In this document: positions 959 through 16,044 of the stretch, one piece after another
Layout: each line of letters opens with the position of its first letter
Numbering within the stretch: position 1 is the stretch's first letter
IMG/VR virus record: IMGVR_UViG_3300040807_002991
Coordinates: 1-22,021 of that record
Direction: 5' to 3' (one strand)
Length of the DNA: 22,021 nucleotides
Source: a virus
Translations under genes and position numbers: made by a program
Notes under the pieces: generated by a model
Database searches by the model: none
The model's input: only the letters and a program-made list of their open reading frames with translations
What the model was told of the DNA's origin: nothing

Positions 959-2243
959 GTACAACCGTCGCAGAATCTGGAAGCCTCACCACCAACTCAA
1001 TCAAGAAACGAGATATCGATTCAGAGATCCAGATGTAGTGTATCCAAAAAAATATCTAAATGTATTAGAGTGGTTGCAAAACCCAAAAATCATACTAGAC
1101 GAGTTTTACACAAGTTTTTGGCAGAGAATTCAAAACTTCCAAAGCAATCCTGGTAAAAAAGTTTACTTCCAATCACAGTCAACCAATAGTATCCTCAACA
1201 AATCAGATGTGACCGAACGTTCACCTTTTGTTGCTCATCACGGAAAAGATTACTATGTCAATCGTGGCAAAGACACCTGCATGGTAGTGCTTGGTGGAGA
1301 TTGGACCAGTGGAAACAAGATGTGGGTCGATCACGAATTGCAGATCGATTTAAAAGACAACTTCGACACATTGGACTTTAGATTAGAGCAAAGCTATGCG
1401 GGAATATTAGCAAAAAAATGTAACACAGATCTTTATTTTGCATCATCAAACGATAATTCTAATAATACAGACAATGTATTTTCGTTGATAGCAATCCTCG
1501 ATTGGTTGCAAGAAAAAAATTATAGAGAAATTTTTGTCGTGTTCGACTTCCAATGTGCAGAACAGGATTGGACATACTCTGTGGTGTGGGGCGATCAAAC
1601 CTTGACCAGTAGATATGGTAAGTTCTATAAACCAAATCTCAAAGGTGCCGGAGACAGAACCGTGTCTAATATGCCTGATCAGTCAACACCTTGGGCATAT
1701 TATTTTTGGCATCTAGGAGCAAAAAGAGATGATGTGCTTAACAATGGTTGGAACTATATGGAGCAATGGCCATATGGATTTTTCAAATACGAAGAATACT
1801 TCAAATATTACGATCTATGTATCTTGGAACTATTGGATGCCATCACCGATAAGTGGCTGAACGTATCGACCACAGTGATGAAGACAAATCACTATTGGAA
1901 GGAATTCGAATTTGGTAAATTAAAAATAATAGAAAAACCATGGATGCAAACTGTGTTAGAACACTTCGGACATAATCTAGAACTATCTCCTATAAACGAT
2001 GATAAAATGCTGATCGAAATCCAAGACCTCTTCATTGTAAATCCATTGCCAATACAAAAGCATCAATACTCTATGTTAAGAGAAGAACGTTTCCTGCAAG
2101 ACGCTGTTAACAAAAAACAAGAAGTACACAAGATCTTAAACAATCTCAAAGACAAAGACTATTTCTACGAAGGATATCCACAAAGAGAATGTCATCACGA
2201 ACTAGCTTGGTATCTTATTGACAAATGCAAATGGAAGTTATAA
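939..2243 (+). CDS. SGNH-hydrolase-like protein with a degenerate nucleophile block
   Basis: A 434-aa soluble protein starting with GTG at 939, preceded by AAGGAG at 923-928; it overlaps kdsA by 20 bases. The central part looks like the SGNH hydrolase fold: GGDWTSG (119-125) sits where block I (GDS) is expected, SSND (169-172) resembles the block III G-x-N-D region, a beta strand REIFVVFDF follows, and HHELAWYL near residue 420 resembles the C-terminal block with the catalytic His. The Ser expected after GD is replaced by Trp, so it may lack hydrolase activity or use another residue. Such proteins in phages often sit with glycan genes; kdsA is immediately upstream. The family call is by motif pattern only and the substrate is unknown. 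Confidence 0.5.
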   Translation: MLNKNSKYNRRRIWKPHHQLNQETRYRFRDPDVVYPKKYLNVLEWLQNPKIILDEFYTSFWQRIQNFQSNPGKKVYFQSQSTNSILNKSDVTERSPFVAHHGKDYYVNRGKDTCMVVLGGDWTSGNKMWVDHELQIDLKDNFDTLDFRLEQSYAGILAKKCNTDLYFASSNDNSNNTDNVFSLIAILDWLQEKNYREIFVVFDFQCAEQDWTYSVVWGDQTLTSRYGKFYKPNLKGAGDRTVSNMPDQSTPWAYYFWHLGAKRDDVLNNGWNYMEQWPYGFFKYEEYFKYYDLCILELLDAITDKWLNVSTTVMKTNHYWKEFEFGKLKIIEKPWMQTVLEHFGHNLELSPINDDKMLIEIQDLFIVNPLPIQKHQYSMLREERFLQDAVNKKQEVHKILNNLKDKDYFYEGYPQRECHHELAWYLIDKCKWKL

Positions 2244-2246
2244 AAT
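2218..2246 (+). promoter_or_regulatory. sigma70-type promoter for the gp62-like gene, leaderless layout
   Basis: TTGACA at 2218-2223, a 17-base spacer, and TAAAAT at 2241-2246. The ATG at 2253 is 6 bases past the -10 box, so the expected transcript start falls on or next to the start codon. The -35 box lies in the end of the preceding gene and the -10 box contains its stop codon. Confidence 0.65.
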
Positions 2247-2252
2247 AGTATC

Positions 2253-2702
2253 ATGGCTGGAAAATTCTTAGACATCAAAGCAATGATGAATGCAGTGGAT
2301 TCTAGAAACAAAACTTGGTATCAAAATCTAAGTCCAGAAGATCAAAAACTATATTCTCCATATATGGCAATGAAATGGACAGCATCTGTTGAACATCCAG
2401 AACCGAGCATTCAAGAATTTTATATAGAAGAAATTAATGAAAATGTTAATAAACATCATTGGACACTGACAAAATCACATAAAAGATTGCTTTGGAGACT
2501 TACAGCTATGTGCGGTTCTACATTTAAAATGTTCCACAAATGGATATATCCAAAAAAGAAAAAGACTTCGGAAAAATCCAAAATCAAGGACCTGCAAGTG
2601 ATGTTTCCAAATGCAAAAATGCATGATCTTGAAGTTTTAGATAAAACTTTGAGCACAAAAGAACACAAAGAACTTAAACTACAATACGGAATAGAAAAAT
2701 GA
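2253..2702 (+). CDS. Probable clamp-loader small subunit, gp62-like
   Basis: 149 aa, basic. The pattern [13 protein letters not shown] (33-45), a spaced hydrophobic helix, [10 protein letters not shown] and then [11 protein letters not shown], followed by a short helical tail, matches the layout of T4-type gp62: Y-x-P/K-F-M near the N-terminus and a later R-Y-x-K-W-x-K basic motif. In T4, gp62 with four gp44 subunits loads the gp45 sliding clamp. No gp44 gene is in the window, so the partner would lie elsewhere. It has its own leaderless-type promoter and abuts the ferredoxin gene with a 4-base overlap. The call rests on pattern resemblance to a fast-evolving family; an unknown small phage protein is the alternative. 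Confidence 0.55.
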
Positions 2703-3022
2703 CTTATCTAGTAAATGACAAATGTGTGATGTGTAAACATACCACCTGTGTGTCGGTGTGTCCTGTAGACTGTTTTTATGAGGGTGAAAATATGCTAGTG
2801 ATCAATCCCGATGAATGCATTGATTGTGGTGTGTGCGAACCAGAATGTCCTGAAGAGGCGATCATCCCTGACAGCCAAGATACCAACGGCTTTTGGAAGG
2901 AAGTAAACACAAAATACTCAAACATCTGGCCAAACATAGCAGACGAGAAGGAGCCATTGCCCGATTACGAGAAGCACTCCGGCGAAGAAGGTAAATGGGA
3001 GAAATATTTTAAAGAAAAATAA
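2699..3022 (+). CDS. fdxA: 7Fe ferredoxin (3Fe-4S plus 4Fe-4S), FdxA type
   Basis: A small cytoplasmic electron carrier of 107 aa. The cysteine layout is that of Azotobacter ferredoxin I: Cys9, Cys17 and Cys50 would bind the 3Fe-4S cluster, and Cys21, Cys40, Cys43 and Cys46 the 4Fe-4S cluster; Cys12 and Cys25 are extra, as in the family. The stretches [10 protein letters not shown] (20-29) and NPDECIDCG (36-44) are strongly conserved, and the acidic C-terminal tail with WPNI and PLPD is also typical, so it is complete. It begins inside the end of the gp62-like gene (ATGA overlap) and its stop overlaps the next start. Neighbouring radical SAM genes suggest it could reduce their clusters; host reductases would have to feed it. 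That role is inference. Confidence 0.93.
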
Positions 3023-5576: not shown

Positions 5577-5604
5577 TTGACGTAAACACTTTTTTGTGTA
5601 AAGT
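5577..5604 (+). promoter_or_regulatory. sigma70-type promoter overlapped by a palindrome
   Basis: TTGACG at 5577-5582, a 16-base spacer, TAAAGT at 5599-5604; the ATG at 5615 lies 10 bases further. A 9-base inverted repeat (5582-5590 and 5605-5613) brackets the -10 box, which would suit a repressor or activator site. Confidence 0.5.
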
Positions 5605-5613
5605 AGTGTTTAC
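5582..5613. repeat. Inverted repeat over the promoter (operator candidate)
   Basis: GTAAACACT at 5582-5590 is repeated as its exact reverse complement AGTGTTTAC at 5605-5613, with a 14-base centre. There is no T-run after it, so a terminator is unlikely. It ends one base before the ATG at 5615. Confidence 0.7.
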
Positions 5614-6390: not shown

Positions 6391-6693
6391 ATGTCACAGT
6401 ACAAGAACTACAGGCAATATCTTATACGTTGGCTGAAGAAAGATTACGTAGAGAACCGGCCTAGATTCTTCGCTGAACTTTTAGGACTTATACTAGGCAT
6501 AGGTGCGACCACTGTGATGGCATTCACTATGCCTCAACCAAATCTCTTTATATCTTACTGTATGTGGGAGATGTCCGCAGTTTGTTTGATATTCGGTGCT
6601 GTTTCTAGAGGGTCCGTTGGTTTAACTTTGTTATATGTTTTATACTTTACCATCGACGGATTTGGTTTGATTCGACTCTTAGGTTGGTTGTAA
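6391..6693 (+). CDS. Integral membrane protein, unknown
   Basis: 100 aa. A basic, soluble N-terminus (KNYRQYLIRWLKKDY) is followed by three hydrophobic segments, about residues 28-45, 50-68 and 76-97. This is consistent with a small three-span inner-membrane protein. The start directly follows the previous stop. I do not recognise the family. Its stop codon forms part of the next gene's -35 box. Confidence 0.7.
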   Translation: MSQYKNYRQYLIRWLKKDYVENRPRFFAELLGLILGIGATTVMAFTMPQPNLFISYCMWEMSAVCLIFGAVSRGSVGLTLLYVLYFTIDGFGLIRLLGWL

Positions 6694-6716
6694 AATTTAC
6701 ACAAATCAGTTATAAT
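6688..6716 (+). promoter_or_regulatory. sigma70-type promoter for the mini polymerase, leaderless layout
   Basis: TTGTAA at 6688-6693, a 17-base spacer, and a perfect TATAAT at 6711-6716. Six bases later comes the ATG at 6723, so the predicted +1 is the A of the start codon. There is no room for a Shine-Dalgarno site. Confidence 0.7.
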
Positions 6717-6722
6717 AGTAAT

Positions 6723-7283
6723 ATGCCAGACATAGATATAGACTTCGCTGATAGACAAGGAATATTAGATAAGATACCACACACTAGAGCAAGTATCATC
6801 GATGCCAAAGGTACCAAATCACACAACACAGGAGTTTACTTTACTGACTGTCCAGTTATACCACAAACGAATCAATCTTCAATAGATTACAAAGTATTAG
6901 AGTCATTAGGATATTTTAAATTAGATCTATTGAATGTTAATATCTATTCAATGGTTAAATCAAGACAACATCTACAAGATTTGATCGACACAGAACCTCA
7001 ATGGGAAAAATTACAGGATCGATCATTTGTCGACCAACTGTTCCATTTGAACGGACACTTCGAAGTTGTCTCTAAACTAAAACCTAAAACACTGGAAGAG
7101 ATAGCTTGTTGTCTTGCTATCATTAGACCTGCTAAACGACATCTCTTAAACAAGTCTTGGAACGATATACACAAAGAGGTTTGGACTAAACCCAATGACG
7201 GACAATATTTCTTTAAGAAAGCACACGCAATATCATATGCGATGGCAGTCACAGTGCATATGAACTTACTTTGTGGTGCGTAG
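6723..7283 (+). CDS. Miniature C-family DNA polymerase (DnaE-like) palm/fingers protein
   Basis: 186 aa from the ATG at 6723, chosen because a strong promoter abuts it. It starts with the catalytic motif PDIDIDF at residues 2-8, matching DnaE PDFDVDF (Asp3 and Asp5). His34 in KSHNTGVYF matches the DnaE MHAGG segment, FKLDLL carries the third catalytic Asp (Asp68), and the fingers motifs IRP (134-136) and FKKAHAISYA (164-173) match DnaE IRPG and FNKSHAAAYA. The PHP domain, the glycine-rich GxGS segment, the thumb and the OB/clamp-binding parts are missing. It could be a reduced polymerase, a nucleotide-binding accessory, or an inhibitor of host DNA polymerase III; activity cannot be judged. 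It converges with the minus-strand gene at 7266 with an 18-base overlap. Confidence 0.75.
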   Translation: MPDIDIDFADRQGILDKIPHTRASIIDAKGTKSHNTGVYFTDCPVIPQTNQSSIDYKVLESLGYFKLDLLNVNIYSMVKSRQHLQDLIDTEPQWEKLQDRSFVDQLFHLNGHFEVVSKLKPKTLEEIACCLAIIRPAKRHLLNKSWNDIHKEVWTKPNDGQYFFKKAHAISYAMAVTVHMNLLCGA

Positions 7284-7708: not shown

Positions 7709-8518
7709 ATGCAATACAACATCGGATACATATTACCCAACCTTGTCGATGTATACATACACACAGACGGGACTGTAAGGAGATACGAAAAAGTGTACGA
7801 AAGATCTATTAAGTTGTACAAAGAAGTAGACAACACTTTTACTTTAGTAGTGCGTAATCAAGATCAAAAGGCACAATTTGTAGACGGCACGTCGACTGTG
7901 CTACAGATAAGCGACAGCAACGACAAATTGCAGATTACAAAGGTCGGTGTTGTTGTGGACGACGGTTCGAGTACATCAACGAAAGGACACGTGAAATTTA
8001 CTATAACCGAAAGCGATATGCTTAAACTAAAAACTGGTTTTTATCACGGTGCTATCAAACACACGGACACATCCAGCACCACACAGATTGTATATGCTGA
8101 CACAAGATATGATGCGGCGGTAAGGTTTGAAGTAGTTGATAAGACATTTCCAGCATTGGTTGATAGCACAGAAATTTCATCTTTCTCACTACTCGAAGGC
8201 AAACATATTTCTAGCACTGTAACAGCAAATGCAAATCAAAATTCCAATCAAGCTTTACACACTGTAGCAGTTTATACAAATGACTTTTCCGGTGACTTAC
8301 ACGTCTATGGCACACTGACTCCTAATATGAGTTATGCAACTGACTCACACCAATCTTCATTCTATAAAATTACCACACAAACATATAGCAATGCATCTGG
8401 AGTGAAATATTTTAATTTCACAGGTGTACACACTTCGGTAGCATTTGTATTCGTTCAAGAATCTGGTGATTCTTCTACTGTGCTCGGCGGCATTGACAAA
8501 CTACTTTACAGATCGTAA
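7709..8518 (+). CDS. Virion structural protein, tail/baseplate type
   Basis: 269 aa, rich in Thr, Ser, Val and Asp with alternating beta strands and almost no long helix. The N-terminal half (KLYKEVDNTFTLVVRNQDQKA, then VKFTITESDMLKLKTGFYHGAI) resembles the BppU-like N-terminal beta-sandwich of baseplate proteins, with the typical property-then-limit strand order. The C-terminal half (HTVAVYTNDFSGDLHVYGTL onwards) looks like a second beta-sandwich. A late promoter motif precedes it. A tail-fibre attachment or virion-surface role is likely but the exact position in the particle is unknown. Confidence 0.7.
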   Translation: MQYNIGYILPNLVDVYIHTDGTVRRYEKVYERSIKLYKEVDNTFTLVVRNQDQKAQFVDGTSTVLQISDSNDKLQITKVGVVVDDGSSTSTKGHVKFTITESDMLKLKTGFYHGAIKHTDTSSTTQIVYADTRYDAAVRFEVVDKTFPALVDSTEISSFSLLEGKHISSTVTANANQNSNQALHTVAVYTNDFSGDLHVYGTLTPNMSYATDSHQSSFYKITTQTYSNASGVKYFNFTGVHTSVAFVFVQESGDSSTVLGGIDKLLYRS

Positions 8519-8521
8519 ACT
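8493..8521 (+). promoter_or_regulatory. sigma70-type promoter for the DUF3307 gene, leaderless layout
   Basis: TTGACA at 8493-8498, a 17-base spacer, TAAACT at 8516-8521, and the ATG at 8528 six bases later. The -10 box includes the stop codon of the structural gene. The -10 match is 4 of 6. Confidence 0.5.
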
Positions 8522-8527
8522 GATACT

Positions 8528-8932
8528 ATGTTACTTCATTTGTTTTTTTTATTACTAGTAAAACATTTTATCTGCGATTTTGCACTGCAAGGAAGATTCC
8601 AAGGACCCAAAGACAAATATAAATTAACTTCAGTGAATGGACATCTACACGCTTTGGATCACGCCGTAGGCACTGCATTCATTTTTGCCTGCTTGTCCAT
8701 CGTAATTTATTTTTACAACCATAGTGCTGTGTTTACCAGTGTGATAGTATTTGCAGTCTTAGATTATGTTCTGCACTTTTTTATTGACTGGATAAAAAAT
8801 AATTTTGTCAAAGCCAATGGTTGGGTCAGCAACCAGAGAGAATTTTGGATTTTAACTTCAATTGATCAATGCCTACACGCTGGTTGTTATTTGTTGTATT
8901 GTGTTCTATTTGGTATTTGGTTTATAGGTTGA
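8528..8932 (+). CDS. DUF3307 family membrane protein
   Basis: 134 aa. It has the DUF3307 pattern: a hydrophobic N-terminus with KHFICDFALQ (about 12-21), HLHALDHA (39-46), a central HFFIDWIKN segment and a C-terminal DQCLHAG segment. These His and Asp residues repeat within or next to hydrophobic spans, giving about four membrane segments. The family is common in phages and bacteria; its role is not established. Transcription may start at its own leaderless-type promoter, separate from the late structural gene just upstream. Confidence 0.85.
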   Translation: MLLHLFFLLLVKHFICDFALQGRFQGPKDKYKLTSVNGHLHALDHAVGTAFIFACLSIVIYFYNHSAVFTSVIVFAVLDYVLHFFIDWIKNNFVKANGWVSNQREFWILTSIDQCLHAGCYLLYCVLFGIWFIG

Positions 8933-8957
8933 CATATTAGTTCTTTATTTTTATAAT
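8929..8957 (+). promoter_or_regulatory. Perfect-consensus sigma70 promoter for the primase, leaderless layout
   Basis: TTGACA at 8929-8934, a 17-base spacer, and TATAAT at 8952-8957: 12 of 12 consensus bases. The primase ATG at 8963 is only 5 bases beyond the -10 box, so the transcript should start at the start codon. The -10 box lies within the palindrome at 8941-8963. Confidence 0.8.
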
Positions 8958-8963
8958 AAAGAA
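8941..8963. repeat. Perfect 9-bp inverted repeat covering the -10 box
   Basis: TTCTTTATT at 8941-8949 pairs with AATAAAGAA at 8955-8963, with a 5-base centre. It spans the -10 box of the primase promoter and ends on the A of the start codon. No T-run follows, so it reads better as a protein-binding site than as a terminator. Confidence 0.65.
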
Positions 8964-9925
8964 TGCTTCCGGATTTACAACATACTCTCGAATCACATCT
9001 ACCTCCCAAACGTAAAAAAACTCCTTCAGGATGGATATCATTCAACGCACCTTGTTGTCATTTTAATGGCGAAACACAAGACACCAGAGGCAGAGGAGGC
9101 ATTATGTATCTAGGTGACGGATCAATACAGTATCACTGTTTTAACTGCGGCTACAAAACTAATTTCACTCCAGGAAGATATCTAAGCAACAGATTTAGGA
9201 AGTTGTTAAGATGGTTAAATGTTGACCAATCAACTATTAGTAAATTGTCAATGGCGGCAATGAAACTAGCACAAGAAGTATCACCTAATAAGAATGTTGA
9301 GAAAGTAGATATCACATTTGACAGTTTCAAACTTCCCGATGACGCTACACGCATAAATGATGATCACTCTAATTACGTAAAATATTTGAACACTAGAGGA
9401 ATCGATCACAACGAATATCCTTTTTACGCATCAAAAACATTAGACAATAGAATATTAGTTCCCATATACAAAGACAAAAAATTGATTGGACAAGTTGCCA
9501 GATCAATTGATCCCAATACAAAGCCAAAATATTATGCACAGGTCCAACCAGGTACATTGTTCAACTTGGACAATCAACATTGGTCAAGAAAATTTATAAT
9601 ACTAGTGGAAGGGGTGTTTGATGCCATAGCCATCGATGGTGTGGCTATATTGGGCAGTGAGATTAGCAACAAACAAAAATTACAGATTGAATCGCTCAAT
9701 CGAAAAGTTATCATAATGCCTGATCGTGACAAAGCCGGAAGCAAACTCATTGATCAGGCGTGTGATTGGGGATGGTCAGTATCTATGCCACCGTGGCAAG
9801 AAGGCATTAAAGATATTAATAATGCTGTATTGACATATGGCAAGATGCTGACCATCCAAGCAATCCTCAAATATACACACGACTCGAAAACAAAAATTAA
9901 ATTGAGTGAGAAATTATGGCTATGA
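8963..9925 (+). CDS. DNA primase, T4 gp61 type
   Basis: 320 aa. The zinc-binding region has Cys31, Cys32 and His33 followed by YHCFNCGY (Cys59, Cys62). The Toprim catalytic core has Ile-Leu-VEGVFDA (Glu216) and MPDRDKAG (Asp254, Asp256), which bind the metal for RNA primer synthesis. In T4, gp61 works with the gp41 helicase, which is encoded 2 kb downstream here. The ATG at 8963 is the only Met before the zinc region, and a perfect promoter abuts it. Its end overlaps the nucleotidyltransferase start by 10 bases. Confidence 0.9.
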   Translation: MLPDLQHTLESHLPPKRKKTPSGWISFNAPCCHFNGETQDTRGRGGIMYLGDGSIQYHCFNCGYKTNFTPGRYLSNRFRKLLRWLNVDQSTISKLSMAAMKLAQEVSPNKNVEKVDITFDSFKLPDDATRINDDHSNYVKYLNTRGIDHNEYPFYASKTLDNRILVPIYKDKKLIGQVARSIDPNTKPKYYAQVQPGTLFNLDNQHWSRKFIILVEGVFDAIAIDGVAILGSEISNKQKLQIESLNRKVIIMPDRDKAGSKLIDQACDWGWSVSMPPWQEGIKDINNAVLTYGKMLTIQAILKYTHDSKTKIKLSEKLWL

Positions 9926-10287: not shown

Positions 10288-11131
10288 TCCTGTAAAATAT
10301 AAAACTCCTTTAAGATATCCTGGAGGTAAATCTCGGGCTATTAAGTTTTTGCACAACTTCCTTCCTGATCGCATTCAAACGTATTGCGAACCTTTTATGG
10401 GAGGTGCGTCCATGGCTCTTTACGTCACCCAAAGATATCCTGATGTTTTGGTTACAGTCAACGATGCATACTATCCATTATTCAATTTCTGGCGTATGCT
10501 ACAGAGTCAAGGCAAGGAAATGGCGATGAGGTTAGAAGAAATTAAAAGAAGTTGTGAGAGCGACAAGGACAAACAGAGAGAAATCTATCAGCAATCGCAA
10601 GTATGGATGGAAGACAAACAATTGGACCATTTCACATCTGCCTGTAGTTTTTATATCGCAAACAAATGTTCGTTTTCAGGTTTGGCTTCTTCTTCTTTTT
10701 CACAACAGGCTTTCGATGGAAACTTCACAATCAACAATATTAGAAAACTTCCTGAGTACCAGGAAATAATCTATATGTGGAACATCACCAATTTTGATTA
10801 CCAAATGTATATGCATCCGGATTATGATCAAGATTTTATATTCCTAGATCCGCCATATGACATCAAATCTTTTTTATATGGCAAAGACGGAGATAAACAC
10901 AAAGGATTTGATCACAACAATTTCAAAGAACATATTGATAGATTAGATAGATGGGGAATAAATTTTATGGTGACTTACAACGCAGATCCAAATTTGATCG
11001 ATGCGTATGCAACCTATAAATGTTTGACCTGGGATCTAAAATATACTTTGCGTTCAACTGGTACATACAGAGAAGATCAAAAACAAAGAAAAGAATTACT
11101 GGTATACAATTATGACAACACAAACAAATAA
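10274..11131 (+). CDS. dam: D12-class DNA adenine N6-methyltransferase
   Basis: 285 aa. SAM-binding motif LRYPGGKS (13-20), EPFMGGASM (39-47) and the catalytic DPPY (192-195) occur in the order of the Dam/DpnM class. It methylates adenine in a short site, in Dam relatives GATC; the actual target is not shown. Near full length for the class. ATG at 10274 with GAGGGA just upstream as a possible ribosome-binding site; it overlaps the genes on both sides. Likely roles are protection from host or rival nucleases, or marking of replicated phage DNA. No partner restriction enzyme is visible. Confidence 0.93.
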   Translation: MVNYNPVKYKTPLRYPGGKSRAIKFLHNFLPDRIQTYCEPFMGGASMALYVTQRYPDVLVTVNDAYYPLFNFWRMLQSQGKEMAMRLEEIKRSCESDKDKQREIYQQSQVWMEDKQLDHFTSACSFYIANKCSFSGLASSSFSQQAFDGNFTINNIRKLPEYQEIIYMWNITNFDYQMYMHPDYDQDFIFLDPPYDIKSFLYGKDGDKHKGFDHNNFKEHIDRLDRWGINFMVTYNADPNLIDAYATYKCLTWDLKYTLRSTGTYREDQKQRKELLVYNYDNTNK

Positions 11132-11549
11132 GGTACTTGCAAAAATAGATGAATGGTCAGAAAATCTTGCTTTGCTGGAGGGACACAGTCGTTTAGAGTA
11201 TTTGATAGATCTGGCCAGACATTCAACAACCATGGATCAAAGCAAACGTATAGAAGAGCGTTTGGTTACAGGTTGTATCAGCAAAATATGGGTAGATGTC
11301 ATTATAGAATCAGATACAGTTAAAGTAGAATATGACAGCGATGCAATGATTACCAAAGGCATCACAAGAATAGTATGCGATTGTTTTAACGACAGCACAG
11401 TAAATGAATGCAAAGGAATCAATCCTGAAGATTTTTTAAAATTAGGAATTGTAGAATTACTAACAGCACAAAGAAGAAATGGATTGGGCAATCTAATTGC
11501 GACAATTATAAGTAGATTCAATCAACTAACCAAAGAGACACAACAATGA
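11112..11549 (+). CDS. sufE: SufE-like sulfur acceptor protein
   Basis: 145 aa. SufE accepts a persulfide from the cysteine desulfurase SufS and passes it to Fe-S cluster assembly. The signature VTGCISKIWV contains the sulfur-carrying Cys55, followed by the conserved SDAMITKGI segment and the C-terminal AQRRNGLGNLIATI helix, as in E. coli SufE. No SufS or scaffold gene is in the window, so it would act with the host machinery. The phage also carries three radical SAM enzymes and a ferredoxin, all needing Fe-S clusters; raising sulfur flow during infection is a reasonable inference. It overlaps dam by 20 bases and speD by 4. Confidence 0.88.
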   Translation: MTTQTNKVLAKIDEWSENLALLEGHSRLEYLIDLARHSTTMDQSKRIEERLVTGCISKIWVDVIIESDTVKVEYDSDAMITKGITRIVCDCFNDSTVNECKGINPEDFLKLGIVELLTAQRRNGLGNLIATIISRFNQLTKETQQ

Positions 11550-11944
11550 AACACAAACATATGATAGTGAGGGCAGAAGCATTCAACGTGCCTAAACACG
11601 AAATCACAATCGTGGATTGGACCAGTAATTTAATACGAGATATAGGAATGAAAATAATGATGGGACCATACGCAAAATATTGTGAAATGCCTGGCAACAG
11701 AGGATTTACTTGTGTGGCCATAATAGAAACATCACACATAGCGTTGCACGTCTGGGATGAACCAAAACCAAATTTAATACAACTGGACGTTTACACTTGC
11801 GGAGAACTACAAAAAGAATTGGTTTTTGATGCACTAGGTAAGTGGGACGCAGAAAAAATAGAGTACAAATATTTGGATAGAGAAAATGATCTCAGAGAAG
11901 TAAATTTTGAAATGACAAGTCCGATGAAAGAAGTTATAATATAA
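11546..11944 (+). CDS. speD: S-adenosylmethionine decarboxylase proenzyme
   Basis: 132 aa, prokaryotic class. The enzyme makes decarboxylated SAM, the aminopropyl donor for spermidine. It cleaves itself to form a pyruvoyl group; the expected cleavage Ser is Ser63 in ETSHIALHVW, with His68 and Cys85 (DVYTCG) as the partner catalytic residues. The usual Glu-Ser-His order is Glu-Thr-Ser-His here, a small deviation next to the cleavage site. speD is a recurring auxiliary gene in T4-like marine phages, probably for polyamines used in DNA packaging or translation. It overlaps sufE and is 2 bases from the helicase start. Confidence 0.9.
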   Translation: MKHKHMIVRAEAFNVPKHEITIVDWTSNLIRDIGMKIMMGPYAKYCEMPGNRGFTCVAIIETSHIALHVWDEPKPNLIQLDVYTCGELQKELVFDALGKWDAEKIEYKYLDRENDLREVNFEMTSPMKEVII

Positions 11945-11946
11945 GC

Positions 11947-13362
11947 GTGGAATATACTAAAGACCTACAGAAATTATTTTTGGAAATGTTCCTTGCGGAT
12001 GCACAGTCATTTGTGAGAGCACAGAACATTTTCCGTTATGCACACTATGATGCACAACTGAGAGAGCCTGCAAAATTTATTTTCGATTATGCTAATGAAT
12101 ACAAGACACTGCCAGATGTTGAGATGGTCAACGCCAAGACTGGTGCAGAACTACAATCAGCGGCGGATATCGATCCTAAACATTTTGACTGGTTCCTCGA
12201 TGAGTACGAGCGATTTGCTAGACACAAAGAGTTAGAGTCGGCTATACTTGCTTCGGCAGATATGTTGGAAAAAGGTGACTATGGCTCTGTGGAAGAGAAG
12301 ATCAAGAAGGCTGTGCAGGTTGGACTCACAAAAGACATGGGTCTGGATTACTTTGAAGATCCCAAAGCAAGATTACAAGCACTCAAAGACAACAACGGAC
12401 AAATACCAACCGGATGGAAGAACTTCGATAAGAAACTGTTTGGTGGTTTCAACAGAGGCGAACTGAACATCTTTGCAGGTGGTTCAGGTGCTGGTAAGAG
12501 TTTGTTCCTACAGAACTTGGCCTGCAACTATGCTGAACAAGGATTGAACTGTGTGTATGTCACACTGGAGTTGAGTGAAAATCTTACAGCAATGAGAATT
12601 GATGCAATGATGACTGAGACTGCTACTAGAGAAATATACAAAGATCTAGACACAGTTGATCTAAAAGTAAAAATGAAAGCAAAGACATCTGGTAAACTTA
12701 GAATCAAATACATTCCGTCTGGAGCAACAGCACTTGATGTGAGAGCATATATTAAGGAATTTGAAATACAGCACAACATCAAATGTGATGTAATTCTAAT
12801 TGACTATTTAGATCTTTTGATGCCACAAAACAAACGAGTGTCTCCATCGGACTTATTTGTGAAAGACAAATATGTGTCAGAAGAACTAAGAAACGTTGCT
12901 GTAGATTTGAATGCATTATTGATAACAGCATCGCAGTTGAACAGAGCATCCGTAGAAGAAATTGAATTTGATCACTCGCACATATCAGGCGGACTATCTA
13001 AGATACAAACAGCAGACAATGTGATTGGTATCTTTACAAGTAGAGCAATGAGAGAACGTGGCAAGTATCAGATACAGTTCATGAAGACTAGATCATCGTC
13101 GGGCGTTGGACACAAGGTTGACTTAGAGTTCAATGTTGATACACTGCGAATACTCGACTTGGCGGAAGATGAAGAATATCAAACATTTAAGAAACAAGCA
13201 CCAAGCATATATTCAAATCTAAAGAGGACCAGCACAGTGACTTCGGAACCAAAAGATGAACATAAGTCGGACGAGCCTCTGAGAGATGACATAGGGAAAG
13301 TAAAAGCAAACATAGAGTCAAGCAAGATCAAACAATTGATCCAAAATATGAACAAGAAATGA
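11947..13362 (+). CDS. Replicative DNA helicase, T4 gp41/DnaB type
   Basis: 471 aa. An N-terminal helical domain (1-130) is followed by the RecA-like motor: Walker A GGSGAGKS (178-185), VTLELSE (205-211), Walker B VILIDY (282-287), TASQLNR, and ISGGLSKIQTADNVIGI with the later KTRSS arginine-finger region. It unwinds DNA ahead of the fork and stimulates the gp61 primase, present upstream. The C-terminus ends with a short tail IKQLIQNMNKK, similar to T4-like phage helicases. The start is GTG at 11947, directly after speD, with no clear ribosome-binding site, so coupling is likely. It overlaps the next gene by 4 bases. Confidence 0.95.
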   Translation: MEYTKDLQKLFLEMFLADAQSFVRAQNIFRYAHYDAQLREPAKFIFDYANEYKTLPDVEMVNAKTGAELQSAADIDPKHFDWFLDEYERFARHKELESAILASADMLEKGDYGSVEEKIKKAVQVGLTKDMGLDYFEDPKARLQALKDNNGQIPTGWKNFDKKLFGGFNRGELNIFAGGSGAGKSLFLQNLACNYAEQGLNCVYVTLELSENLTAMRIDAMMTETATREIYKDLDTVDLKVKMKAKTSGKLRIKYIPSGATALDVRAYIKEFEIQHNIKCDVILIDYLDLLMPQNKRVSPSDLFVKDKYVSEELRNVAVDLNALLITASQLNRASVEEIEFDHSHISGGLSKIQTADNVIGIFTSRAMRERGKYQIQFMKTRSSSGVGHKVDLEFNVDTLRILDLAEDEEYQTFKKQAPSIYSNLKRTSTVTSEPKDEHKSDEPLRDDIGKVKANIESSKIKQLIQNMNKK

Positions 13363-14036
13363 TAGATAGAATACTATCCGTTGGGTGTTCTTTTTCTGCT
13401 CTGCGTCCCTCAAATGATATAAAAACCTGTATAGGCAACGAGTTTGCAAAAAACTATGATATTCCCGCTGACATCCTTGCGTGGGCAGGAAATGGTAACA
13501 GAAGAATTAACATAGACACGCAATTATATTTTGAAACTAGGCCAGATCAAAAACAAAACACATTCGCTGTGATACAATGGTCTACACCCGTCAGGCGTGA
13601 CTTTCCTGCAATAAAATACGGATATTCAAATGATCTCAAACCTATCTACTGGAAGAGCTGGAAGAGTCACAAACAAAGAGAAGCACAGTATATCAAAGAT
13701 CGTGCTTGGGATCTAGATATGGATCAACCATTAGTTGAACTAGAAAATTTGATCAGTCTACAAAATTATTTCAAACTGAACAAAATTGCTTATGTGATGT
13801 ACTTTGGGTTGGATCCCGAGATACACGTTGACTTACCGCAAATTAAAATATTGCTAAATCAAGTTGACAAAAAAAGAATCTTTAATTATAATACTCATCA
13901 TATGGAATGGTGCATCGAAAACAATTATACTTGTACTGATCAAGATCCTCATCCTAATGAAGATGGCATTCGAATTTGGTGTGAGTCTATGTTCAACTGG
14001 ATTGAAGAAAATAAATTTTTCGACACTATTTCATAA
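13359..14036 (+). CDS. SGNH-hydrolase-like protein
   Basis: 225 aa. Blocks of the SGNH fold are in order: VGCSFS (8-13) with the nucleophile Ser11, AGNGNRR (43-49) for the Gly/Asn oxyanion residues, a VIQWSTP strand (71-77), and DPHPNEDG (196-203) with the Asp-His pair. The family includes esterases and acyltransferases acting on sugars or lipids. Unlike the protein at 939, all catalytic residues are in place. It overlaps the helicase end (ATGA). Glycan modification is the likely field, but the substrate is unknown. Confidence 0.75.
   Translation: MIDRILSVGCSFSALRPSNDIKTCIGNEFAKNYDIPADILAWAGNGNRRINIDTQLYFETRPDQKQNTFAVIQWSTPVRRDFPAIKYGYSNDLKPIYWKSWKSHKQREAQYIKDRAWDLDMDQPLVELENLISLQNYFKLNKIAYVMYFGLDPEIHVDLPQIKILLNQVDKKRIFNYNTHHMEWCIENNYTCTDQDPHPNEDGIRIWCESMFNWIEENKFFDTIS
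13864..13892 (+). promoter_or_regulatory. Intragenic perfect-consensus sigma70 promoter
   Basis: TTGACA at 13864-13869, a 17-base spacer, TATAAT at 13887-13892, lying within the coding sequence of the SGNH-like gene. An in-frame ATG (codon 182) follows at 13902. It may drive the micro-ORFs at 14085 and 14222, or be chance in AT-rich DNA. Confidence 0.45.
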
Positions 14037-14221: not shown

Positions 14222-14278
14222 ATGTGGCCATACACTGACGAAGAAAACGATATGTTGAGCAAACCAAAAAAAGGTTAA
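14222..14278 (+). CDS. 18-aa micro-ORF
   Basis: ATG at 14222, TAA at 14276-14278, encoding WPYTDEENDMLSKPKKG after the Met. AGGAAAA just upstream is a possible ribosome-binding site. The WPxTxEE start recalls tiny proteins seen in T4-like marine phages (from memory, not checked). Its stop overlaps the stop of the convergent polymerase gene. Confidence 0.4.
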   Translation: MWPYTDEENDMLSKPKKG

Positions 14279-15966
14279 TCGTAGAACTGATTGATCTTCA
14301 TCGATTTGCACTCCAGCACCTCTATGTAATCAGAATTATTTAGGTGCTTGACCTTGCCAATACCCTGTATTACATCATAATCGGAATAAGGAAACGGTTT
14401 GTTTATATTCAAATCAACGTAATAACCATTATCAATACCAAGTGTAACGAAGGTTACATACTTCTTATCGCCCGATTTATACACTCTACCATTGGCAACT
14501 AATCCGGCAAATTCGATACGATCGAGATATAGATGTTTGGTATAGAAACCAGGCAAGAACTTTTTATCCGACCACCAACCATATTTTTTGAACTGATATA
14601 CTGGATCGTCCCAACTATCCGACTTGCTAACAGTCACAGGACTCAATCCAACTCTCTTTGCTTCTGTCTTGTACACCCATCTCCTATAGGATCCATGGCA
14701 GTGTTTGAGTGCGGCTTGCCAAAATCCTTTTTGATTGTGTGCTTTTTGATAAGCCAATGCCCATATCAATCTACCTAGATTTACTGCATGAGCTCTGCAC
14801 AAACCAAATCCACTTAGGCTTTGTAAAGACTTGAACACTTCATCTTTGCGAGGATGATCACCAAGCCTAGTCATAAATTCCATTACACGTTCTTCGTTCT
14901 TTTTGGCGAATGCTCTGCGGTACATATCTGCTTCGTAGAAATCACATCCTATGAGTTTTGATATTTGTACAATGGCGTCATCTTCACATACCACAACATC
15001 CGATATCCTGTCGGAAGTCCAGTCATTAAAAAAGGCCGCCTTACGTCTTCCTTGCAGTGCTACGGGGCGTATCAATGCTGTGGCAAACACACAATCAAGC
15101 ATCGATCGTGGACGTATTGCCCTAAACAATCTCCTCATTGCAGGTGATTCTCCTTGGGTCACTCCCAACACGTCTCCCCGACTCAACAAAGACGAAGTAG
15201 CCTCGTCGATCTCTGGATATTCGTATAACTTTGTCTGTGCGTCGATGTCCAAAAGTTGGCTCAGGCCTCGATTGGCCAGGATGTCCACTTTGAGGTGTTC
15301 TAGATCCTCCACTTCGTTTTTGTCTAACAGTATCTGATTGGTTTGTGATATTAAAGATTTTGGTAATTGCCTTGTAAACATTAAGATGCCTCCACAGTGT
15401 TTTGATATGCATTTTTTCTTGCCTTTCAATTTTGATTCTATTCGTTTTGCCTCAACGGGATCAACTCCCAGCGATTCGTAGGTGAACTTCCTGGGCAGGC
15501 GTCCCCGGTACCCTAACCTTTTAGCTGCCTCACGTCTAGCTGACTTGTCTTGATACAACACATAGTTTGATATCCTTGCCGACTTGCCAGGCCATTTTTT
15601 GAATATGCGATTCATGACTTCTTCCTGACGATAGTGTGGATAGTCAATGTCCACATCAGGTAGATCATCTCGCTTGGGATTGAGGAATCGAGCCACAGGA
15701 ATGTCCCACTGGATGGGGTCAACATCTGTGATGCCCATAAGGTAACACACCAGAGAGGAACCAGCCGACCCTCGAGTCATATGAGGAATGTCTTGAGTAA
15801 GATCAAGAATATCACGGATTTGGAGAAAGTAATCCACAAACCGGAGATCAAGAATGATCTCAAACTCCTCTGCGAGTCTAGATTGGTATTCTGGTGTTAG
15901 GGGACAGGTACGTGTGAAACGTTCAGTGAGTTTGCCTATTAGTTCTATCGCCTTTACGTCTTCCAT
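14275..15966 (-). CDS. PHP-less C-family DNA polymerase catalytic subunit (DnaE-like)
   Basis: 563 aa, about half of a bacterial DnaE. It keeps the core in order: TRGSAGSSLVCYLMGIT (64-80), the glycine-rich nucleotide motif; ARFLNPKRDDLPDVDIDY with catalytic Asp104 and Asp106; KHCGGILMF (189-197); LKVDIL with the third catalytic Asp (Asp228); TALIRPV (296-302); and the fingers motif GLCRAHAVNLGRLIWALAYQKAH (388-410). Residues about 440-563 look like a small beta-rich, OB-type end. The whole N-terminal PHP domain is absent and no clamp-binding peptide was noticed. All three Asp residues are present, so it may be active. Its relation to a T4-type gp43 polymerase, which is not in this window, is open. 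Start at 15966 keeps the full glycine-rich region; a divergent promoter region lies upstream. Confidence 0.85.
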   Translation of the reverse strand: MEDVKAIELIGKLTERFTRTCPLTPEYQSRLAEEFEIILDLRFVDYFLQIRDILDLTQDIPHMTRGSAGSSLVCYLMGITDVDPIQWDIPVARFLNPKRDDLPDVDIDYPHYRQEEVMNRIFKKWPGKSARISNYVLYQDKSARREAAKRLGYRGRLPRKFTYESLGVDPVEAKRIESKLKGKKKCISKHCGGILMFTRQLPKSLISQTNQILLDKNEVEDLEHLKVDILANRGLSQLLDIDAQTKLYEYPEIDEATSSLLSRGDVLGVTQGESPAMRRLFRAIRPRSMLDCVFATALIRPVALQGRRKAAFFNDWTSDRISDVVVCEDDAIVQISKLIGCDFYEADMYRRAFAKKNEERVMEFMTRLGDHPRKDEVFKSLQSLSGFGLCRAHAVNLGRLIWALAYQKAHNQKGFWQAALKHCHGSYRRWVYKTEAKRVGLSPVTVSKSDSWDDPVYQFKKYGWWSDKKFLPGFYTKHLYLDRIEFAGLVANGRVYKSGDKKYVTFVTLGIDNGYYVDLNINKPFPYSDYDVIQGIGKVKHLNNSDYIEVLECKSMKINQFYD

Positions 15967-16016: not shown

Positions 16017-16044
16017 ATCATATTTATCAAAAATTAATTTCCAA
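16017..16044 (-). promoter_or_regulatory. Putative sigma70-type promoter for the C-family polymerase
   Basis: On the minus strand: TTGGAA (16044-16039), a 16-base spacer, TATGAT (16022-16017), about 50 bases before the start codon at 15966. An ATAAATA late-type motif (16027-16021, minus strand) overlaps the same place, so the timing of expression is unclear. Confidence 0.35.

Follow-up and report, generated by a model that had tools for sequence, protein, structure and literature searches.

The DNA primase gene in a 22,021-base virus record, probably a fragment (the window; this is the whole stretch of DNA analyzed), begins directly downstream of a strong sigma70-type promoter. We consider it likely that this start-codon promoter gives rise to a leaderless mRNA, and that it is one case of a layout, found in a T4-like phage lineage, that extends to early and late promoters alike.

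The primase promoter and its conservation

The primase gene (8963..9925, + strand) matches phrog_47, DNA primase (E 2.3e-44), and the match starts from residue 1 in most loci; we take T4 gp61 to be the protein with which it is to be compared. Its promoter, TTGACA-17-TATAAT, scores 12/12 matches with a spacer of 17. The -35 (TTGACA, 8929..8934, +) contains the TGA stop (8930-8932) of the upstream neighbor, a DUF3307 membrane protein gene (8528-8932, +), and the -10 (TATAAT, 8952..8957, +) ends 5 nt before the primase ATG (8963-8965). One other 12/12 site with a 17-nt spacer occurs in the window, at 13864-13892, inside gene 13359-14036.

In the usual sigma70 geometry, a 6-nt gap between the -10 and the start codon places +1 on the first base of that codon. 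Initiation by host RNA polymerase would be expected at the A of the primase ATG or next to it. With a gap of 5 nt, as in the window, or of 7-8 nt, the start could lie 1-2 nt off the first base; at the window's 5-nt gap the purine preference of RNA polymerase would select the A. We infer that the resulting message is translated from its 5'-terminal start codon.

Only protein-level searches brought up relatives of the primase. Megablast of the window gave no match in 50,697 phage records (very near records were possibly left out), and the 282 named phage records that matched the primase were all <60% identical to it, the 20 best listed matches being 30-36% identical and including the jumbo phages Atu_ph07, PA5oct and PBECO4. 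A total of 286 primase loci, which include repeatedly fetched contigs, represent 153 distinct upstreams, assembled from earlier loci and four further protein-guided scans, three of them covering the best 80 loci. Loci were dropped when there was <60 nt upstream of the match or when the match began after query residue 30; the corresponding limits for the table of orthologues of window genes were <45 nt and residue 40.

All of the first-tested primase orthologues (26/26, some of them near-copies) had a -10 ending 5-8 nt before the start. In these first relatives the -35 stays TTGACA-like and the -10 TATAAT-like, and both the spacing and the 5-8 nt gap persist; the left arm of a palindrome described below occurs only in two near-identical contigs. 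Across the full set, 143 of the 153 distinct upstreams carry a sigma70-like promoter (≥9/12) that leaves 5-8 nt between its -10 and the start codon, and a leaderless primase mRNA is therefore predicted. The perfect primase promoter and the leaderless transcript proposed in an earlier note on this DNA thus both stand, the first as a conserved and hence real element, the second as a prediction in which the transcription start is inferred from promoter position. Among 139 unique primase promoters (the window's own is one of them; promoters with N were excluded), the gap is 6 nt in 94 and the start codon is GTG in 19. Because GTG is also kept at most orthologues of the window's helicase gene, initiation seems to tolerate GUG. 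Among the ten exceptions without the promoter are Atu_ph07, Phosso and PBECO4, where AAGG-like sites precede the primase start instead, and two loci (L245 and L272) in which, by eye, a TATAAT lies 5 nt before an ATG but no good -35 accompanies it.

Could this conservation be a by-product of coding, with the C-terminus of an upstream protein spelling out the promoter? In 61 of the 143 distinct upstreams (where an upstream ORF of ≥60 codons was found), as such a reading would have it, the upstream stop falls at the -10, 23 nt past the point where the -35 begins. However, the stop lies elsewhere in the other 82 (offsets -30 to +26; +1 in the window), so that the same promoter is combined with different frames and neighbors, and a search among the distinct primase upstreams for confinement of the promoter to one upstream protein end revealed none. 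Because the upstream stop takes many positions relative to the -35, upstream coding alone is insufficient to account for the conservation, and we regard this explanation as extremely unlikely.

Early and late promoters at start codons

The primase is one of five window genes (2253, 6723, 8528, 8963 and 11947) with leaderless-type promoters, all on the + strand. The other four promoters each end 6 nt before the start codon. TTGACA-17-TAAAAT (2218..2246) precedes the ATG at 2253 of a gene without assigned function (2253-2702), 11/14 of whose orthologues keep such a promoter. TTGTAA-17-TATAAT (6688..6716) precedes the ATG at 6723 of a DNA polymerase fragment (6723-7283; best PHROG phrog_11778), and TTGACA-17-TAAACT (8493..8521) the ATG at 8528 of the DUF3307 gene. 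ATGACA-17-TATAAT (11912..11940) precedes the GTG at 11947 of a DnaB-like helicase (11947-13362, identified by PHROG match), and 23/27 helicase orthologues keep the arrangement. Leaderless positions are not kept for every gene: the polymerase fragment retains one in 6/20 orthologues and gene 8528 in 4/17.

In the window, the last codons (IDKLLYRS-stop) of a structural-type gene, 7709-8518, spell out the promoter of the next gene. An early-type promoter was found before 0/21 orthologues of this structural gene; many of the 21 tested have a late-type ATAAATA motif ~11 nt before the ATG, which corresponds to a short leader. A second DNA polymerase piece lies at 14275-15966 on the - strand (best PHROG phrog_405; Pfam DNA_pol3_alpha plus finger domains), 7 kb from the fragment at 6723-7283 on the + strand, and the two are possibly a split polymerase III alpha.

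We compared the number of genes with start-abutting promoters to that in 50 shuffles; genes were ORFs of ≥80 codons picked by length, with several candidate starts each, and the shuffles used identical candidates. Early-type sites were in excess in the window (5 vs 0.1) and in three relatives that are contigs of 86-108 kb (G005, 8 vs 0.4; G007, 12 vs 0.3; G014, 12 vs 0.6). The same three relatives have a T4-type late class, with the motif NATAAATA before virion genes, also in excess over shuffles (13 vs 2.4, 12 vs 1.9 and 14 vs 2.4 genes, respectively); in the window itself, no late-type excess is apparent (1 vs 0.7 expected). When 584 genes of 11 contigs, among them the window, are taken together, early-type sites number 7, 26, 13 and 8 at gaps of 5, 6, 7 and 8 nt, versus ~1.5 per gap at 9-60. 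The late motif TATAAATA (7/8 matches) peaks at gaps of 5 and 6 nt (16 and 19 genes), versus ~2 per gap elsewhere, with single gaps reaching 8. Three longer contigs with primase relatives (G034, G035 and G036) exhibited excesses of both types, with 8, 3 and 8 early sites vs 0.9, 0.4 and 0.4 in shuffles and 22, 7 and 14 late sites vs 7.8, 2.4 and 2.8; the first of these contigs has many leadered promoter matches too. Part of the genes rely on Shine-Dalgarno-like sites, which were present in 127 of 949 upstreams, compared to 40 at a control position.

We compared nine late-type proteins, our choice from 38 listed in the three 86-108 kb relatives, with PHROGs. Matches to virion, tail or connector families account for eight of them (for two of these the best match is without known function), and the ninth matches an HNH endonuclease. 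Ten early-type proteins, likewise our choice from 37 listed in the three contigs, comprise one DNA helicase, one deoxynucleoside monophosphate kinase, six members of families of unknown function and two with no match. A few genes are in both lists. The division into early and late timing is imperfect, because a portal protein gene in this set carries an early-type site and some entries in the late-type list do not resemble virion genes. A gp55-like late sigma is encoded in G007 and G014 and was not found in G005, which may be incomplete. Early sigma70-like and late NATAAATA promoters would both often set the transcription start at the start codon, the late ones presumably being read by the phage's gp55-type sigma.

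The palindrome and hairpins around the -10

The earlier note had also pointed to a palindrome that covers the -10 of the primase promoter and reaches the start codon. It is present, as read directly from the window: TTCTTTATT-TTTAT-AATAAAGAA at 8941-8963 (+), with the left arm at 8941..8949, the loop at 8950-8954 and the right arm at 8955..8963, which extends from within the -10 as far as the A of the primase start codon. That A is the 3' end of the palindrome; the end at 8965 given earlier is that of the start codon.

We favor, with some reserve, a chance origin for this palindrome: the near-palindromic TATAAT would act as a seed between a spacer rich in AT and, ahead of the ATG, a run rich in A. 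Requiring perfect 9-bp arms separated by a loop of 3-8 nt yielded four matches at two places in the window (the primase palindrome, and three overlapping matches at 16029-16031), and 200 first-order Markov simulations gave a mean of 1.05 such repeats, with at least one in 53.5%. Because about one is thus expected per window, the primase palindrome is not unusual window-wide and is weak evidence when taken alone. At the primase promoter itself, a 9-bp arm arose in ~1.5% of 3000 shuffles confined to the spacer and to the bases ahead of the start codon. Conservation of the left arm, which the earlier note had named as its own test, was absent: TTCTTTATT occurs in three contigs only, the window and two near-identical ones (through repeated entries, these contigs fill 5 of the 286 locus rows), and the palindrome is missing from the closest diverged relative, L019, whose primase has 91% amino acid identity. 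On the sequences compared, the window palindrome is a species-level feature of the primase promoter. Another palindrome, GTAAACACT-N14-AGTGTTTAC, covers a promoter-like site at 5582-5613 of the window, just before an ATG (~5615); among three contigs checked (G010, L003 and L019), it was found only in the near-identical L003.

Against a chance origin stands a recurrent excess of hairpins in other primase promoters. Perfect inverted repeats overlapping the -10, with arms of ≥6, 7, 8 and 9 bp, are present in 18, 7, 3 and 2 of the 139 promoters, respectively, vs 8.9, 2.65, 0.79 and 0.23 expected from shuffles. These shuffles preserved the -35, the -10 and the start codon (only its first base in the arm-length count) and used single-base shuffling elsewhere. 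The hairpin sequences differ between promoters, and by eye the 3' arm often reaches the start codon.

One reading of this excess is an RNA switch, in which a hairpin occludes the primase start in read-through transcripts from upstream while transcripts that begin inside it, and so have no left arm, are translated; T4 lysozyme mRNA is a precedent for such a switch. Besides the arm-length excess (arms ≥7 bp: 7 vs 2.65), folding is stronger on the mRNA-sense strand, the pattern expected of an RNA-level role, to which it lends limited support. Mean folding z over the 139 promoters is -0.60 mRNA-sense vs -0.18 on the opposite strand; in a thinned set of 41 dissimilar promoters the two values become -1.05 and -0.44 (paired p=0.003). 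These p-values rest on related sequences, and the thinning corrects for kinship only partly. Furthermore, 9.4% of the 139 primase promoters have a rank ≤0.01, compared to 0/59 other leaderless promoters.

Several results stand against the switch. Start-codon pairing does not rise above shuffles: the start codon is unpaired at 0.370 in read-through RNA vs 0.385 with shuffled upstream sequence (p=0.27, n=139), the mean rank over 60 leaderless genes is 0.483, and at the window promoter the start codon is unpaired at 0.34 vs 0.26 with shuffled upstream. The 85-nt region around the window site folds no better than shuffles (z -0.15). Most relatives are without a strong hairpin: z falls below -2 in only 19% of 93 representative promoters (12% on the opposite strand), and the L034 group (n=54) gave no significant folding effect. 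Nor is the effect strictly confined to the primase, because the other leaderless promoters shift mildly too (mean z -0.32, p=0.03), and hairpins at the leaderless promoters of the three longer contigs were not clearly different from shuffles. Overall, we hold a functional switch to be rather unlikely, and we rate the window's own palindrome as more likely due to chance. Hiding of the start codon, which had been proposed for read-through transcripts, is not borne out as a general feature. The read-through hairpin itself is sustained in part: different -10 hairpins recur above shuffles and fold more strongly mRNA-sense, whereas the window's own left arm is not conserved.

The earlier note had further suggested that the symmetrical site serves tight control of replication onset. 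Read as an operator, the dyad over the -10 would be bound by a dimeric repressor that controls primase transcription. The window's dyad is perfect and centered near the -10, and 60 leaderless promoters yielded three dyads with arms of ≥8 bp (0.27 expected), each different and each at a primase gene. However, there is no dyad sequence in common between promoters, the opposite strand gives a weaker symmetry signal that is non-significant after thinning, and the window's left arm is limited to one species. We therefore do not uphold the operator and judge it very unlikely.

A chance origin thus remains our preferred account of the window's palindrome. The other hairpins, present in a minority of primase promoters, may weakly control translation from read-through transcripts. 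A broader scheme can be envisaged for the T4-like lineage, in which much of the early and late programme is leaderless and, in part of the lineage, a read-through hairpin at the primase would let replication proteins be made from the early leaderless message and not from late read-through; we think it unlikely that this full scheme is correct.

Known systems, named phages and the host

Elements of this layout are familiar. Leaderless genes with a -10 abutting the start codon are described for Actinobacteria and Deinococcus-Thermus in the available parts of two papers (PMC3160421, PMC12340547). The likeness extends to the position of a TANNNT/TATAAT motif ~12 nt upstream of the start in the portions available, which leaves space for neither a leader nor a Shine-Dalgarno site; in contrast, the layout reported here belongs to a phage lineage, includes a -35 and involves both early and late promoter classes. 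The accessible text of the first paper also notes that leaderless initiation occurs in phage lambda (PMC3160421). As in lambda, a phage gene here would be transcribed from its own start codon, whereas the present contigs have several to a dozen such genes each and the arrangement is conserved at the primase across many phages. The leaderless gene of lambda is cI, to our knowledge the only one in that phage.

Further parallels are in T4. The T4 late promoters (TATAAATA, gp55 sigma) share their motif with the late class described here, and two of the relatives encode a gp55-like sigma; the T4 spectrum, however, is highest 22 and 28 nt before starts, whereas that of the relatives peaks at 5-6 nt. 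In the T4 genes e, soc and I-TevI, a hairpin masks the ribosome site of early transcripts, and the late promoter is located within this hairpin. The primase promoters resemble these in having a promoter within a hairpin near the start, and differ in being early-type and leaderless, with a sporadic hairpin and a start codon that is no more paired than in shuffles.

Other phage reports touch on parts of the subject. The portion seen of a paper on AR9 remarks in passing that phage transcripts are 'often leaderless' (PMC5312081), and the word 'leaderless' does not appear in a jumbo-phage review (PMC13282480). For a T4-like methylophage, 31 early and 15 late promoters were predicted and, in the text available, not called leaderless (PMC9004378). 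For pelagimyophages, a different group, the available text reports that prediction of middle and late promoters was unsuccessful (PMC7029224). Among the matches listed in the open-access literature, we found no description of a phage lineage that places early and late promoters at start codons. A start-abutting -10 and leaderless initiation in phages are therefore already known; the placement of both promoter classes in a phage lineage would appear to be new. Should the starts be confirmed, a promoter and its start codon would make up a single unit in these phages. Start-codon annotation would then change, promoters could be found where standard methods failed, and the question would arise of how the infected cell favors leaderless translation.

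We scanned named phages for the same excess. T4 showed none over shuffles (0 early; late 6 vs 5.4; 159.3 of 168.9 kb scanned), nor did S-PM2 (0 early, 0 late; 139.4 of 196.3 kb). Pelagibacter phage HTVC008M exceeds shuffles (139.4 of 147.3 kb scanned), with 12 late sites vs 4.5 (max 9), 10 genes being at gap 5, and 4 early sites vs 0.5 (max 3). Mosig has no excess (late 8 vs 4.5, max 10; early 2 vs 0.5, max 2; 139.4 of 141.5 kb scanned). A SAR11-specific rule is not established, because HTVC008M exceeds shuffles but Mosig does not.

The PA5oct primase has a leaderless-looking layout; genome-wide, this phage shows no excess (early 4 vs 1.5, max 5; late 8 vs 13.7). Its annotated GTG start (locus L072, 485-493) directly follows TATAAT, and the leaderless layout agrees better with a GTG located 6 nt downstream. 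The layout predicts that this second GTG, 6 nt after TATAAT and two codons past the annotated start, is the true start of the PA5oct primase.

A layout driven by the host was considered and rejected, since no clear leaderless peak was seen in seven Pelagibacteraceae loci nor, separately, in 378 kb of one Pelagibacteraceae contig. Because of this result, a Pelagibacter-type host and a marine habitat for the phage lineage remain guesses. The pointer to such a host is a ferredoxin gene in the window (2699-3022), which is 72% identical to that of Candidatus Pelagibacter, the best of 80 among at least 592 matched stretches. The window also has two host-like metabolic genes, encoding SufE and S-adenosylmethionine decarboxylase (11112-11944), between its methyltransferase and helicase genes.
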